25,223 nt of DNA from a virus. Numbering within the stretch: the first letter of the stretch is position 1; each line of letters begins with the position of its first letter. The notes under the pieces are model-generated. The model was not told the DNA's origin and made no database searches. It worked only from the letters and a program-made list of their open reading frames with translations. The stretch covers positions 1 to 25,223 of the IMG/VR virus record IMGVR_UViG_3300027971_000204; one strand, 5' to 3'. A program made the position numbers and the translations under genes. This document shows positions 8,294 through 22,383 of this stretch, one piece after another.

Positions 8294-8593
8294 TAGTAAA
8301 GATCGCATGGATAAATTCCCTGCGATTTTTGCACGTGGCGGTTATCCACAGGGGGTGTGTATAACTAATGTGTTTAAGGTCACACTTTTATTTCCCCAAT
8401 TTACGGCGTGTCGATTTGCTTTTTTGACATTTCTTTGCTATACTTCTAGTATAACAATTAAATAAAGATAAATAAGCAATGAGCCTTAGCAAATAAATGT
8501 GACTAGTATCACAGTGAGCCTAAGCAAATAAGTGCCCAATTTGTCAGACCCCCCTGCTAGACTTACTATAACAACAAACGAAAGGTAGTCAAA
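8294..8593 (+). promoter_or_regulatory. 300-base regulatory region with two promoters
   Basis: In order: CACGTG (8332-8337), TTATCCACA (8342-8350), TGTGT-TTAAGG-TCACA (8369-8384, one mismatch to the CRP/GlxR palindrome), promoter TTGCTT-N17-TATACT with palindrome TATACT-TCT-AGTATA (8416-8453), two 17-base direct repeats TGAGCCTTAGCAAATAA and TGAGCCTAAGCAAATAA (8480-8496 and 8515-8531) that flank a perfect TGTGA-CTAGTA-TCACA (8498-8513), then TTTGTCAGACCCCCCTGC joined to TAGACT (8540-8563). GAAAGG precedes the ATG at 8594. No gene except a possible 5-codon frame at 8479. Confidence 0.65.
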
Positions 8594-9392: not shown

Positions 9393-9456
9393 CACGTGCA
9401 GTTATCCACAGGTCAGACCAAGTTATCCACAGGCTTAAGATGTGAGATTTATCACA
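9393..9456. promoter_or_regulatory. CACGTG / two DnaA-type boxes / CRP-type palindrome cluster
   Basis: CACGTG at 9393-9398, TTATCCACA at 9402-9410 and 9423-9431 (same orientation, 21 bases apart), TGTGA-GATTTA-TCACA at 9441-9456. GTCAGACC also occurs between the boxes. Same order of parts as at 8332-8384 and 13829-13887. Confidence 0.65.
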
Positions 9457-13828: not shown

Positions 13829-13956
13829 CACGTGGGGTTATCCACAGGTTATCCACATGATTAAGGTCACATGTGTTTAAGATCACCTTACGATATGTCC
13901 TAATTGCCCCATGTTTACTTATACGATTTGACTTTGTCAGTCCCGCCATGTATACT
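13829..13956 (+). promoter_or_regulatory. CACGTG / two DnaA-type boxes / CRP-like site / TTTGTCAG promoter
   Basis: CACGTG (13829-13834), TTATCCACA at 13838-13846 and 13849-13857 (11 bases apart, about one helical turn), TGTGT-TTAAGA-TCACC (13872-13887, degenerate palindrome), TTGACT (13928-13933), spacer of 17 made of TTGTCAGTCCCGCCATG, TATACT (13951-13956). The leader AACAACAACAGAAAAGG ends before the ATG at 13990. It is the fullest version of the intergenic cassette. Confidence 0.7.
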
Positions 13957-13989: not shown

Positions 13990-15006
13990 ATGGCACATGA
14001 AATCGAAACACAAAATGGTAAGGCTTCATTCGCATCATTTCGTGAACCCGCTTGGCATGGATTGGGTACCGTATTTACAGAAGAAAAAACAACCGCAGAA
14101 ATGCTACAGGCTGCAAGCCTTAATGGTTGGAATGTTCGTCTGGAAGATTTGGAAACCCCTACACATCTAACAAGCGACAAAAACTATCAGTATGTTTTGC
14201 GTACTAACCCAACAGATAACTCTCAGACCGACATTCTTGGTGTCGTTGGTGAGCGTTACCATGTAATGCAGAATGAAGATTTATTCTCATTCGGTGACAA
14301 CATTCTTGATGGTGGTGGTCGTTGGGAGACGGCTGGTTCAATCAAGGGTGGTCGTGTCGTATTCGGTGCGTTAGCACTAGAGCGTGAAACAATTCTTGAC
14401 CCTAACGGTGTTGCAGATAAGGTAAAGACTTATTTACTTATCAACACATCACATGATGGTTCAATCGCTATTCAAGCAAGCATCACACCTGTTCGTGTTG
14501 TGTGCGCTAACACTCTTAATCTTGCACTTAACACAACCAAAAAGAAAAACGGCGTTAAGCAATCATTCAAGATTCGTCACACACAGACAGCAAGCGGTAA
14601 GGTAGCCGTTGCTCGTGAGACTCTTGGCATGGCTCATAAGTACATGGACTCTTTTGACCTCATGGCTAAGGCTATGATTGAAAAAGAAATCACCGCCATT
14701 GACTTTAACAAAATCATTCTTGCTGCTTATCCTAAGCCAGAGGCAGATGCTAAGGGTGCTTTCAAGAAATGGGAAAACAAGGTAGATACAATTAACGACA
14801 TCTATACAGGCGAGTTTAATGGTATGATTGCTGGTAATGCGTGGGGTGCTTTCAATGCACTTACTGAACGCCTTGACTGGCACCGTTCTGCTCGTGGTGG
14901 TTCTAACGAATCCATTCTAGCATCAGCATCAGGATTTGACCCTGCTATCAACGCAGAAAAAAATCGTTTGCTAAAAGTTGTGCAAAATGTTTTGCAGATT
15001 GCATAA
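13990..15006 (+). CDS. DUF932 phage/plasmid-like protein
   Basis: 338 residues. The N-terminus MAHEIETQNGKASFASFREP followed by AWHGLGTVF is diagnostic of the DUF932 (phage/plasmid-like, TIGR03299) family. The middle (VRVVCANTLNLAL) and the region before the C-terminus also fit, and length is typical. These proteins are common in phages and plasmids of actinobacteria; the role is not settled, with DNA replication or recombination often proposed. It has the most elaborate promoter cassette in the window and an AAAAGGAA ribosome site, suggesting high or tightly controlled expression. Confidence 0.85.
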   Translation: MAHEIETQNGKASFASFREPAWHGLGTVFTEEKTTAEMLQAASLNGWNVRLEDLETPTHLTSDKNYQYVLRTNPTDNSQTDILGVVGERYHVMQNEDLFSFGDNILDGGGRWETAGSIKGGRVVFGALALERETILDPNGVADKVKTYLLINTSHDGSIAIQASITPVRVVCANTLNLALNTTKKKNGVKQSFKIRHTQTASGKVAVARETLGMAHKYMDSFDLMAKAMIEKEITAIDFNKIILAAYPKPEADAKGAFKKWENKVDTINDIYTGEFNGMIAGNAWGAFNALTERLDWHRSARGGSNESILASASGFDPAINAEKNRLLKVVQNVLQIA

Positions 15007-17916: not shown

Positions 17917-18041
17917 GTGCATTATCATTCAACAAACCATCAAACCTTATATCTAAAAGACATTACGAACCTCCAAACCTTTCCCCCTCCAAAACATTAC
18001 GATCCAAACCTTTATTTCCCCAATGGTGGTATAATTTGTAT
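17917..18041 (+). promoter_or_regulatory. Repeat-rich gap with leaderless promoter
   Basis: Contains CAAACCTT (17941) and two CCAAACCTTT words plus ACATTACGA at 17960-17968 and 17994-18002. Ends in GTGGTATAAT (TATAAT 18030-18035) exactly 6 bases before the ATG at 18042. Confidence 0.6.
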
Positions 18042-18293
18042 ATGAGTCCTAGACACTTTGCTAAATATGCTAAACAAGATCCTAAACAATATAAGGCATT
18101 CTCTGATTCTATGTGGAATGGTTTTGTATCTGCTACTAAGCATGTTCCCTTTATGGGTAAGTTCTTTTCTTTCACTCCCGCCCCAGAAATCCTTAATAAT
18201 CCTATTAGTAATGGCGAAGCCATTGGTGTTGCGCTTGGAGATCTCTACGATTTATCGCAGGGGATAGACAAGCAAGAACCACCAGTAGAATAA
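18042..18293 (+). CDS. Hypothetical basic-aromatic protein
   Basis: 83 residues: MSPRHFAKYAKQDPKQYKAF, then SDSMWNGFVSATKHVPFMGK. The N-terminal half is basic and aromatic. The leaderless promoter sets the start; an open frame extending upstream to 17901 crosses it. Ends in a Pro/Glu-rich tail. No known family. Flanked on both sides by the ACATTACGA and AAGGTTTG repeats and followed by a strong terminator. Confidence 0.6.
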   Translation: MSPRHFAKYAKQDPKQYKAFSDSMWNGFVSATKHVPFMGKFFSFTPAPEILNNPISNGEAIGVALGDLYDLSQGIDKQEPPVE

Positions 18294-18365
18294 CAAACCA
18301 TTATCTCCTGGTTTCTTTAAATAACATAAAGGTTTGTTTAAAAAACATTACGATTATCGACAATT

Positions 18366-18391
18366 TCTCCCTGGTTTTGGGAGATTTTTTT
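18366..18391 (+). terminator. Rho-independent terminator
   Basis: TCTCCC (18366-18371), loop TGGTTTT, GGGAGA (18379-18384), then seven T (18385-18391). It is the clearest standard terminator in the window and ends transcription from the gene at 18042. Confidence 0.8.
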
Positions 18392-18416
18392 ATGTGGTTT
18401 TAAGGTTTGAAAGGAC

Positions 18417-18445
18417 TTGACAAACCATTATATCTGTGATATCAT
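18417..18445 (+). promoter_or_regulatory. Orphan sigma70-type promoter, possible ncRNA or primer
   Basis: TTGACA (18417-18422), 17-base spacer, TATCAT (18440-18445). Downstream, 18446-18700 contains no coding frame of useful size but does contain the palindrome, the CTCCACT repeats and the DnaA-type boxes. It could make a small RNA or a replication primer. Confidence 0.5.
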
Positions 18446-18588
18446 CCGCTGCGAGGATATAAGGTTTGAAGGTTTGACAATATGAAGGTTTTGTGATAGG
18501 AGGTTTGGGGCCCCAAGACATTACGAACGCCTCTATAAAAGCGCTCCATCCTCCACTAGTCTCCACTTCACTCCACTTCTACCCTATC

Positions 18589-18841
18589 TAATAATATTAT
18601 CAGTAAGATTATTATGTGGATAAACCTGTGGATAACTTCTTAAGTAAAGGCTAAGAAACCTTAAGTAAAGGCTAAGAACCTGTGGATAACTCTCTGATAT
18701 ACTTAGTATATGACAGAACAAACCGAAGAAAAGATCCCAGGATATAAGCAAAACCCTCCTGATTGGTGTGATGATTGTACTATCCAAGATAGTGTTTGTA
18801 CAATATGTGGCTGTAGCCATAACTGCTAAACCTGTGGATAA
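18589..18841. other. Candidate replication origin: DnaA-type boxes, 21-bp repeats, AT-rich inverted repeat
   Basis: TAATAAT...ATTATTA inverted repeat (18589-18595 and 18608-18614), then TGTGGATAA at 18615-18623, 18627-18635, 18681-18689 and 18833-18841, all in one orientation. Two direct repeats of TTAAGTAAAGGCTAAGAA (18640-18657 and 18661-18678, 21-base period) lie between boxes 2 and 3. TGTGGATAA is the complement of the DnaA consensus TTATCCACA. A gene (18710) lies inside. Confidence 0.5.
18710..18829 (+). CDS. Cys-rich microprotein, likely zinc or Fe-S binder
   Basis: 39 residues: MTEQTEEKIPGYKQNPPDWC, then DDCTIQDSVCTICGCSHNC. Seven... in detail CDDC, CTIC, GC and a final C make six cysteines after the Trp plus the final one, packed in 20 residues, typical of a compact metal knuckle. 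Leaderless: TATACT (18698-18703) lies 6 bases before the ATG. A DnaA-type box occupies the place of a -35 element, so DnaA or its target may control it. Confidence 0.65.
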   Translation: MTEQTEEKIPGYKQNPPDWCDDCTIQDSVCTICGCSHNC

Positions 18842-18858
18842 CCGACGGTAAATAAAGA

Positions 18859-19173
18859 TTACGATACACCCTTTATAGCCCTATTGACCATACGGATCAA
18901 ACCTTTTCGAGTTATCTTCGACGCATCAAATGTCTCAGTATATCCCCCTTGTGGCATATCTGCCTTATCCAGGAAATGTCCATACTTGGAAGTAAGGGTT
19001 TGTACTACTAGGGATTCTATGGCTCTCGCTTCATCCCGTTCGGGAAATGCCCAATATTTTATGAGTATCCAACCCTTGGTCCTATGGCTCGCAAACCTTC
19101 TACCTGAGACATCAGATATACCTATCTTGATAGCCTTATGCATTGGGCTGTATAGTATATATAGCAGGGTCAT
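18859..19173 (-). CDS. GIY-YIG / T5orf172-type nuclease-like protein
   Basis: 104 residues from ATG 19173. N-terminus LLYILYSPMHKAIKIGISDV then GRRFASHRTKGW has the Y-I-L and K-I-G-I-S core of the T5orf172/MUG113 branch of the GIY-YIG family, with an Arg at about 25-26 and a Glu at 53 in place for catalysis. Probably a DNA endonuclease or a mobile intruder. Start set by TATAAT 6 bases upstream; a longer frame to 19272 would cross the shared promoter. Divergent from an HNH gene, with overlapping promoters. Confidence 0.65.
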   Translation of the reverse strand: MTLLYILYSPMHKAIKIGISDVSGRRFASHRTKGWILIKYWAFPERDEARAIESLVVQTLTSKYGHFLDKADMPQGGYTETFDASKITRKGLIRMVNRAIKGVS

Positions 19174-19221
19174 ATGTACATTATACTTGACATCCCCTGC
19201 CAAATCTGAGATAATGGTTGT
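19174..19221. promoter_or_regulatory. Overlapping divergent leaderless promoters of two nucleases
   Basis: Leftward TATAAT at 19185-19180 (6 bases to the ATG at 19173). Rightward TTGACA at 19187-19192, 17-base spacer, GATAAT at 19210-19215, 6 bases to the ATG at 19222. The leftward -10 abuts the rightward -35, so both cannot be used at once. Confidence 0.7.
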
Positions 19222-19665
19222 ATGTATCCTAACTGTGGAACCTATGCTGGCTATCGCAAACACCATAACCACAAGACTAAACCATGTATTGAGTGTTTGG
19301 CTGCATCAGGTGTCTACAATAGATTACGATATGCCAAGAATAATCGTGCACATGTAACTGCTAAGTATCGTGCCTCAAACCTTGATAAAGTAAGAGATAG
19401 GGAAAGATCTAAGAATAGGCGACGCAGAGCAAAGATTACGAACGACTATAATGAACTCCAGGTTATATCTGTCTATGGGATTGATTGCTACTTATGTGGG
19501 TTAGAGATTGACTTTATGGCTCCCCGAAAATGTGGGGTCAAGGGCTGGGAGCAGGGTTTGCATATCGATCATCTTGTTCCTATTGCAAAGGGTGGCTCAG
19601 ATACATTGGAAAATGTCAGACCAGCACATGGTTTATGCAATTTAAGAAAGTGGGCAAATATATGA
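19222..19665 (+). CDS. HNH endonuclease
   Basis: 147 residues. N-terminal zinc-knuckle part: MYPNCGTYAGYRKHHNHKTK then PCIECLAASG (Cys 5, 22, 25). A basic linker (RERSKNRRRRAK) follows. C-terminal HNH nuclease: CYLC (89-92), HIDHLVPIAKGGSDTLENV (His114, Asp116, His117, Asn131), then HGLCNLRKW (Cys139). All catalytic and zinc ligands appear present. Free-standing HNH genes in phages are often homing endonucleases; others are part of packaging. Leaderless start; stop overlaps the next gene by 4 bases. Confidence 0.88.
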   Translation: MYPNCGTYAGYRKHHNHKTKPCIECLAASGVYNRLRYAKNNRAHVTAKYRASNLDKVRDRERSKNRRRRAKITNDYNELQVISVYGIDCYLCGLEIDFMAPRKCGVKGWEQGLHIDHLVPIAKGGSDTLENVRPAHGLCNLRKWANI

Positions 19666-19868
19666 TTAACATGGAAATACCTGATCCATTTCAAACCTTT
19701 GTAGCCAATAAATACGCCAATGCCAAAGGGTATGTTCATGACTGGTTTAGTGGTGAATGGTCTTATAGATGTTTAACTTGTAAGGATGATCTATCTGCTC
19801 CGTCCCGCAAAATTATGACAAAGATTCGTCTCTATCATACAAGGAATGAGTGCTTAGGGGGATACTAA
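19662..19868 (+). CDS. Small protein with CxxC, unknown
   Basis: 68 residues: MINMEIPDPFQTFVANKYAN, then WSYRCLTCKDDLSAPSRKIM, ending in HTRNECLGGY. CLTC plus His and a later Cys may form a zinc finger. The ATG overlaps the HNH stop (ATGA), so it is coupled; it might aid the nuclease. A TGCCC/GGGCA stem follows. Confidence 0.65.
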   Translation: MINMEIPDPFQTFVANKYANAKGYVHDWFSGEWSYRCLTCKDDLSAPSRKIMTKIRLYHTRNECLGGY

Positions 19869-19908: not shown

Positions 19909-20487
19909 CTATTTTTCGCCGAACTTTAATTCATAATTTTTATCCTTAGTAAACCACAAAAGGACCGAGTACCTGTCTTCATTTATAAATTTTACTTCAT
20001 GAAAAGATGTATTTTCCGCCGACTTAAATATAACTAAATCTCCAGACATGGGCATAATTTCCAGACTAAGGTACGGGAACTCCAATGGGCCAGAGTTGTT
20101 AGGAGTATTTAAGTACAATATAGCGCTGTATTCGTAATGATCATTAAACCCAGAGTCTGTGTCTAAGTGTCCACTAACTTGAGCGCCAGGTAATTGTTTT
20201 GCTAACCAAAACGATGAAAGATATAATTGTTGATTATCCTTAAATTCATCTGATATAGATTTTACTGAAAGATTAATAATTGTTTCTATTTTGTTTTGTA
20301 TTTCGTCTATACCAGTAATAATTTTTGCTGATTGTTGTTTGTGAAATTTGTCATCTCCAAACATTTTTTGGAATCTTAGTCTTTTTGGTCCAGTAATAAA
20401 AGAATCTTGATTTTTGTTTATATAATTAATTATAAATTCAGCATCTTCACTGTTTATAGAATTTTTTAATACTCTTACTGGCTCCAT
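19909..20487 (-). CDS. 2-oxoglutarate/Fe(II)-dependent oxygenase-like (prolyl-4-hydroxylase-like)
   Basis: 192 residues from ATG 20487. Jelly-roll signature: GHLDTDSG (His107, Asp109, the H-x-D iron ligands), SGDLVIF (about 148-154), His163 in SFHEVKF and Arg172 in DRYSVLLWF for 2-oxoglutarate binding. It should hydroxylate a protein, nucleic acid or small molecule using iron, oxygen and 2-oxoglutarate. Start set by TATACT 7 bases upstream; the extension to 20556 crosses a divergent promoter. Its own neighbour across the promoter is a zinc-ribbon gene. Confidence 0.75.
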   Translation of the reverse strand: MEPVRVLKNSINSEDAEFIINYINKNQDSFITGPKRLRFQKMFGDDKFHKQQSAKIITGIDEIQNKIETIINLSVKSISDEFKDNQQLYLSSFWLAKQLPGAQVSGHLDTDSGFNDHYEYSAILYLNTPNNSGPLEFPYLSLEIMPMSGDLVIFKSAENTSFHEVKFINEDRYSVLLWFTKDKNYELKFGEK

Positions 20488-20523
20488 ATTGACAAGTATA
20501 CCATGAAGTGGTATGATGTATAT
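20488..20523. promoter_or_regulatory. Divergent -10 promoters
   Basis: Leftward TATACT (20500-20495) with 7 bases to the ATG at 20487; rightward GTGGTATGAT (TATGAT 20512-20517) with 6 bases to the ATG at 20524. The two share their upstream bases. Confidence 0.6.
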
Positions 20524-20664
20524 ATGACATGTACAAAGTATGGGTGCGACTACCAATTAGACCTTGATGGCCAGGTAACCTGTGCTGTTTGTGGGGCTAT
20601 GGATGATGACGCATCAACTCCAATAACATTAGATATGTTTGAGGCTCAGGTTGATTTTGAGTGA
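20524..20664 (+). CDS. Zinc-ribbon microprotein
   Basis: 46 residues: MTCTKYGCDYQLDLDGQVTC, then AVCGAMDDDAS and an acidic tail. C-x4-C and C-x-x-C spaced 11 residues, a zinc ribbon. Leaderless (TATGAT 6 bases upstream). Short gap to the next gene. Confidence 0.65.
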   Translation: MTCTKYGCDYQLDLDGQVTCAVCGAMDDDASTPITLDMFEAQVDFE

Positions 20665-21531: not shown

Positions 21532-21576
21532 TTAACCATTATACACCAATAACTTTGTATAGTGTATACTATAGAT
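21532..21576. promoter_or_regulatory. Divergent leaderless promoters
   Basis: Leftward TATAAT (21543-21538), 6 bases to the ATG at 21531; rightward TATACT (21565-21570), 6 bases to the ATG at 21577. The oxygenase and the flavin monooxygenase are thus controlled together from one 45-base gap. Confidence 0.65.
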
Positions 21577-22383
21577 ATGTTAAATTTTCACTGGATGCAA
21601 AGAATTCATTGGCCAAATACCACCGAAGGCCTGGTAGAAATGGCAAAACAGTTAGAGGATGCAAACATAGAATCAGTTTTGATGCCTTATGGTCCAGGAG
21701 GTAATGATTTTTCCATGTTTCTTCCAGATATTTTTAGGTCAACTAAAAAAATTAGAATTATACTCGCTGCTGGGGCTTATGCAGTTACACCAGAATATGT
21801 TGCAAAAACATTTTTTACAGCACAAAAATTTGGAGATAATAGGGTAGACCTAAACCTTGTTGCTGGAAGATACAGCGACGAGTTTGAGCAAACAGTTATT
21901 GATAAATATCCTGGAGACTCTTCTTTAGTTGATACACATACAAAGAGAGTTGAAATGACTGAAAAATGGATGGAAAAGTTTGTTAGTATTATAAAAGATG
22001 AAGAATACACAACAAAATTAATGGTTGTTGGATCATCTGAAATAACTATAAGAATAGCAAATAACTATACTGATTATATGATTATCAATGGTGATATTTT
22101 AATAGATGGTAAAAGGGGTCAACTTACAAATACAAAGCCAATCCTGTGTATTGATCCCTTAATCCTTGAAGATGGTATGAGTGAAGACGATATTGAGTAT
22201 CACGATTATAAATTTACAAAAAAACCTAACCATTTCCCCAAGGGCACATATGATCATGTTAAGGAAATAATCAAAGAAATATCAATTGGCAATAACATTA
22301 ATGATTTTATGATACATACAGATCAAAAAAATATTGATCAAATATTTAGATTAGTAAAAGATTTATCTCAAGAAGTTGACTGA
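21577..22383 (+). CDS. Luciferase-like flavin-dependent monooxygenase
   Basis: 268 residues from ATG 21577 (leaderless). It has the TIM-barrel pattern of the bacterial luciferase-like family: an early NFHWMQRIHWPNTTEG and LVEMAKQLEDANIESVL, then IILAAGAYAVTPEYVAKTFF and RVDLNLVAGRYSDEF, and a later DTHTKRVEMTEKWMEKF. These match the family's strand 4-5 and FMN-phosphate side. It is shorter than usual alkanesulfonate monooxygenases, so the insertion region is reduced. Likely uses reduced flavin and oxygen on an unknown substrate; sulfonate cleavage is one option. Confidence 0.7.
   Translation: MLNFHWMQRIHWPNTTEGLVEMAKQLEDANIESVLMPYGPGGNDFSMFLPDIFRSTKKIRIILAAGAYAVTPEYVAKTFFTAQKFGDNRVDLNLVAGRYSDEFEQTVIDKYPGDSSLVDTHTKRVEMTEKWMEKFVSIIKDEEYTTKLMVVGSSEITIRIANNYTDYMIINGDILIDGKRGQLTNTKPILCIDPLILEDGMSEDDIEYHDYKFTKKPNHFPKGTYDHVKEIIKEISIGNNINDFMIHTDQKNIDQIFRLVKDLSQEVD

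Follow-up and report, generated by a model that had tools for sequence, protein, structure and literature searches.

We lean toward reading the block at ~18400-18690 of the window, a 25,223-base IMG/VR virus record (IMGVR_UViG_3300027971_000204) analysed over its whole length, as a phage replication origin opened by host DnaA. Upstream lie an AGGTTTG array and CTCCACT repeats, followed by ATCAGTAAnAT, a 5-bp spacer and two DnaA boxes 2-3 bp apart, an order shared by related phages. In the proposed model, host DnaA would bind the tandem box pair and extend onto the AT-rich strand, as in the basal unwinding system (BUS) of bacterial oriC; this strand would melt, and the phage DnaB-like helicase, primase and polymerase would then be loaded. 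The AGGTTTG or CTCCACT repeats may be the target of a phage protein, and DnaA on box 3 would repress the first downstream gene. Given the presence of UvsX-like recombinase and resolvase genes, later copying is probably recombination-dependent. More tentatively, and with doubt prevailing, widespread freshwater phages with their own replisome might carry a stripped-down version of the unwinding module of bacterial chromosomes, in which host DnaA melts the origin and hands it to the phage helicase while a third box, once occupied by DnaA, silences the first gene. How large phages with a replisome but without a recognisable initiator choose their origin is poorly understood. If the model is true, the timing of phage replication would be tied to the host cell-cycle regulator DnaA; the tandem boxes also occur in culturable Streptomyces phages, which opens the question to laboratory strains.

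Source, Relatives and Probable Host

The window covers part of the genome of a ~110-kb freshwater phage, distant kin of Streptomyces phages in Stanwilliamsviridae. Its DUF932 protein (gene at 13990-15006) is 89-98% identical to those of 80 further viral contigs, several longer than 100 kb, and ~52% identical to proteins of ~130-kb Streptomyces phages. In a 105-kb relative the genes run helicase, primase, SSB, DNA polymerase, UvsX-like recombinase, Cas4-like exonuclease, RuvC-like resolvase and terminase, and this replication gene order matches that of Streptomyces phage Annadreamy (Stanwilliamsviridae). Because of the gene order and the DUF932 kin in Streptomyces phages, the host is likely an actinobacterium. 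When the 1.6 kb surrounding the site were compared with cultured phages at the DNA level, nothing matched. A scan of genome contigs with the core pattern, made for comparison with host oriC, matched a single contig (L137), which carries the phage block in full; although assigned to a Chitinophagaceae MAG, it probably derives from a phage and was misbinned. The window also carries metabolic genes, at 19909-20556 and 21562-22383, predicted to encode a 2OG-Fe(II) oxygenase and a luciferase-like monooxygenase.

DnaA Boxes and Repeats in the Window

Four exact TGTGGATAA boxes, all in the same orientation, lie within 227 bp (0.0036 expected; probability of at least four ~7e-12 before correction for ~111 segments). 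The 25.2-kb window as a whole holds nine exact TTATCCACA boxes against 0.4 expected, the usual extended form being GTTATCCACAGG. These four boxes, an AT-rich palindrome (CTAATAATATTATCAG, 18588-18603), a direct repeat, a terminator and a Cys-rich ORF are all where the preliminary description had placed them (table 1). Most relatives retain neither the palindrome nor the 19-bp repeat; they share instead the box pair, the 5-bp spacer and ATCAGTAAnAT, along with the CTCCACT and AGGTTTG repeats upstream, which were absent from the preliminary description. The AGGTTTG repeats (17941-19700) cluster at the block in mixed orientation, where they overlap the -35 and the spacer of promoters lying upstream; between this array and the CTCCACT repeats sits the strongly conserved CATTACGA..CGCC..TATAAAAGnGCTC. 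The CTCCACT repeats themselves have the DnaA-box core TCCAC in the opposite orientation.

Table 1. Features of the block and its surroundings (window coordinates)
Feature	Position	Strand	Remark
Iteron-like AGGTTTG repeats	17941..18507		17941-, 17974-, 18005-, 18330+, 18403+, 18462+, 18470+, 18501+
Intrinsic-terminator-like hairpin	18366..18392	+	Upstream of block; TCTCCCTGGTTTTGGGAGA-T7 at 18366-18384
Sigma-70-like promoter TTGACA-17-TATCAT	18417..18445	+	Reads into block
Conserved element CATTACGA..CGCC..TATAAAAGnGCTC	18515..18547	+	Alignment of relatives
Three CTCCACT repeats	18551..18577	+	At 18551, 18561, 18571; 10-bp period
AT-rich unwinding candidate	18588..18614	+	Conserved ATCAGTAAGAT + 5-bp spacer
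DnaA box 1 (TTATCCACA on - strand)	18615..18623	-	Exact match
DnaA box 2	18627..18635	-	Exact match; 3 bp from box 1
Two identical direct 19-nt copies of CTTAAGTAAAGGCTAAGAA	18639..18678	+	Starts 18639 and 18660, 21 bp apart; lineage-specific, outside conserved core
DnaA box 3	18681..18689	-	Exact match; in -35/-10 spacer of leaderless promoter
Extended -10 (TGATATACT)	18698..18703	+	6 nt before ATG; similar arrangement in relatives
39-aa Cys-rich ORF (6 Cys), leaderless	18710..18829	+	Downstream gene differs among relatives
DnaA box 4	18833..18841	-	Exact match; directly after Cys-rich ORF

Two other candidates were rejected. As for RNA structure, a consensus fold computed from 28 relatives contains 10 pairs, none with a compensatory change; in these, CTCCAC is matched with the GTGGA within the boxes, an arrangement of inverted DNA repeats, and an Rfam search returned two tRNAs only. 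A second promoter at CATTACGA..TATAAAAG, an element also conserved upstream of the core, has the wrong spacing in the window.

Conservation of the Block

Among the 65 relatives whose locus reaches far enough past the DUF932 gene to be evaluated, 60 have TCAGTAAnAT and a box following that gene at a distance of 3.2-5.4 kb, and a full-core scan of the viral collection matched at least 120 contigs. The geometry was compared in 64 relatives chosen for carrying the core. Although the search pattern had allowed 3-8 bp between AT-rich element and box, 63 of the 64 have a 5-bp spacer, which comes in 12 sequence variants; the gap between the paired boxes is 2-3 bp in 60, and a P1-like promoter lies upstream in 62. 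CTCCA[CT] occurs in two to four copies in 59 relatives, and the five with none still have the boxes. In the four 105-119-kb relatives the block is present once per genome, and 11-13 of the 41-52 genomic AGGTTTG copies are no more than 1 kb away from the box cluster, an array of such density occurring once per genome.

What follows the block varies. At 150-750 bp downstream, the sequences of 60 relatives sort into 33 groups, whereas the block, which was the selection criterion, is common to all; therefore the block is an independent cis site and not a leader belonging to a single gene. An origin should be present as a single conserved cis block whatever genes flank it, and this is the pattern observed. 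Three relatives (L058, L071, L076) keep ATCAGTAAGAT and the CTCCAC repeats but have lost the DnaA boxes, so that the boxes are not indispensable. These three amount to a natural experiment on which part of the block matters.

Nucleotide skew had been set as a test of the origin, with a minimum expected at the site. No GC-skew minimum is found at the block: the cumulative minimum of the window lies near 5 kb, where the gene strand switches, and in the four 105-119-kb relatives the block is likewise away from the minimum. In addition, for minus-strand genes the skew at third codon positions reverses its sign at the block, but in the sense opposite to divergent forks. Skew is weak evidence here, since phage skew follows gene strand. 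The origin first proposed from the window is partly supported: the conserved gene-independent cis block, the oriC-like geometry and the lack of a phage DnaA lift this reading well above chance, while the expectation on skew failed.

Candidate Binder and Unwinding Element

DnaA domains (PF00308, PF08299) were found in none of 10 long records, all of which encode a DnaB-like helicase; primase, SSB, polymerase, UvsX and RuvC are also phage-encoded. Of the ~30 larger proteins of one relative that were scanned, none was recognised as an initiator. For the boxes, the obvious candidate binder is host DnaA.

In the published unwinding module of bacterial oriC, tandem boxes separated by at most 3 bp are followed by a short spacer and by trinucleotides whose central base is A (PMC8287927). 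The window pair, two exact boxes with a 3-bp gap, falls within that limit. Read 3'->5' from the box, the adjoining strand of the window gives eight consecutive NAN trinucleotides, resembling DnaA-trios, a run with ~1% chance in equally A-rich random sequence. This run exceeds the minimum for such a module, three NAN trinucleotides on the correct strand at a distance of 0-16 bp from the box, a loose requirement that chance often produces. In trios 2-6 from the box, the central A is found in at least 94% of relatives and the phase is common to them, this phase signal stemming mostly from the invariant ATCAGTAAnAT itself. From the 5-bp spacer the trinucleotides read TAG-AAT-GAC-TAN, a partial match to the 3'-GAT-5' consensus. 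We infer DnaA-trios in the AT-rich element only weakly.

Box 3 and the Leaderless Gene

The 39-aa Cys-rich ORF has no Pfam match, and its leaderless expression is plausible given the extended -10. Box 3 had been proposed to stand in place of the -35; in fact, the -35 position (18675-18680) is a weak AGAACC, and the box, directly downstream, fills the 17-nt spacer before the -10. In 10 relatives the box lies exactly between a perfect TTGACA, which abuts it, and the -10. Because the spacer is filled in this way, DnaA at box 3 would block the promoter, which implies that bound DnaA should repress the first downstream gene. The earlier suggestion that expression may follow replication is best recast in these terms, on the arrangement in the 10 relatives.

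Boxes Elsewhere in the Genomes

Across 1.78 Mb, TGTGGATAA-type boxes number 557 against ~25 for permuted 9-mers, a count inflated by overlapping loci. At the other window sites (8342, 9402/9423 and 13838/13849), CRP/GlxR-like palindromes and then promoters come after the boxes. TGTG-N8-CACA lies within 60 nt of a box in 74 of 212 such sites, against 2% expected. Since box sites accompany palindromes and promoters, these genomes evidently put DnaA boxes to another use besides that at the block. At 8342-8380, 9402-9456 and 13838-13885, the boxes mostly come after CACGTG, and are succeeded by TGTG-N8-CACA-like palindromes and TGTCAG..TAGACTTA-type promoters; this arrangement recurs in many relatives.

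Alternative Readings

That promoter-associated boxes exist in the same genomes, some of them paired, bears directly on a reading of the block as DnaA-responsive transcription control, where host DnaA and a phage repressor, with AGGTTTG operators over the -35 and spacer, would regulate promoters into the variable genes without any start of replication. The box within the TTGACA/-10 spacer of 10 relatives, the upstream P1-like promoters in 62 of 64 and the three relatives that keep the rest of the block without boxes all agree with it. Yet the block is shared and the downstream genes are not; the box pair and AT-rich element lie ~60 bp from the leaderless promoter, where a fixed 5-bp geometry would be superfluous, and so dense an AGGTTTG array occurs once per genome. 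We regard transcription control alone as rather unlikely, although it is the strongest competitor of the origin reading. The same three relatives, together with iteron-like arrays beside the AT-rich element, would fit an origin with a phage-encoded initiator acting on the CTCCACT/AGGTTTG repeats, DnaA being accessory as in iteron plasmids. Against this, the scan of ~30 larger proteins in one relative recognised no initiator, and the five relatives without CTCCAC repeats keep their boxes; we consider such an initiator improbable and rank this reading third.

The genome-wide excess of boxes (557 versus ~25, the former inflated by overlapping loci) could instead reflect titration, many phage copies with up to nine boxes each soaking up host DnaA and so stopping host initiation. 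A decoy, however, needs neither a fixed box-to-AT spacing nor an invariant ATCAGTAAnAT, and most of its boxes would be expected to be scattered; we give this reading little credence. Least credible of all is a DNA-entry pause or packaging signal, a role proposed for T5-type phages, whose injection stop signal contains DnaA boxes (PMC13250531): in the four long relatives the block is mid-genome, away from ends and terminal repeats, although record ends may be arbitrary. Of all these readings, an origin opened by host DnaA is the one that we favour.

Comparison with Known Systems

The block resembles the BUS of bacterial oriC (B. subtilis incC; PMC6669920, PMC8287927) in its tandem boxes with a gap of 2-3 bp, in its short spacer and in the AT-rich strand beside the boxes, which can be read as NAN trinucleotides. 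As at R1 of E. coli oriC, the AT-rich side is on the same side of TGTGGATAA. Unlike the BUS, the phage block has no dnaA nearby, few boxes, and trinucleotides that match 3'-GAT-5' poorly. Among phages, Pseudomonas phage PseuGes_254 has a large genome and an origin predicted from DnaA boxes and an AT-rich region (PMC11512268); that prediction concerns one genome and was made by software, whereas the present architecture is conserved in dozens of relatives. T5-type phages also combine DnaA boxes, repeats and palindromes in noncoding DNA, but their boxes lie near the end of the terminal repeat and a role in DNA entry was proposed (PMC13250531). Blast matches to the boxes were obtained in Synechococcus, Pseudoalteromonas and Salmonella phages, as pairs in H101 and single boxes in Sepoy, and no trio-like runs longer than chance were found at the boxes of these two. 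In the unrelated 132-kb Pseudoalteromonas phage H101, a noncoding stretch (~1935-2030) contains four DnaA boxes, of which two form a tandem. The openly licensed papers searched contained no description of an unwinding module of this kind in phages, and a conserved oriC-like, gene-independent block across a whole phage lineage appears undescribed there.

Annadreamy offers a culturable counterpart. Besides the similar replication gene order, it has 24-bp tandem boxes identical to those of the block; they lie past its DUF932 homologue on the downstream side, within 1.5 kb of noncoding DNA. A third box lies 255 bp beyond the pair, and three of its four exact boxes are in the noncoding region. It differs in the length of this region, in having other repeats and in the absence of an AT-rich trio-like element, and the site is unannotated. 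The boxes of Annadreamy argue that the pair is old and under selection. DnaA also assists the iteron-plasmid origins of P1, F, R6K and pSC101. Like these, the block gathers iteron-like repeats, an AT-rich region and DnaA boxes within one short stretch, differing in that it has no adjacent Rep gene or recognised initiator. DnaA-assisted origins are thus a known kind, of which the block would be a variant.
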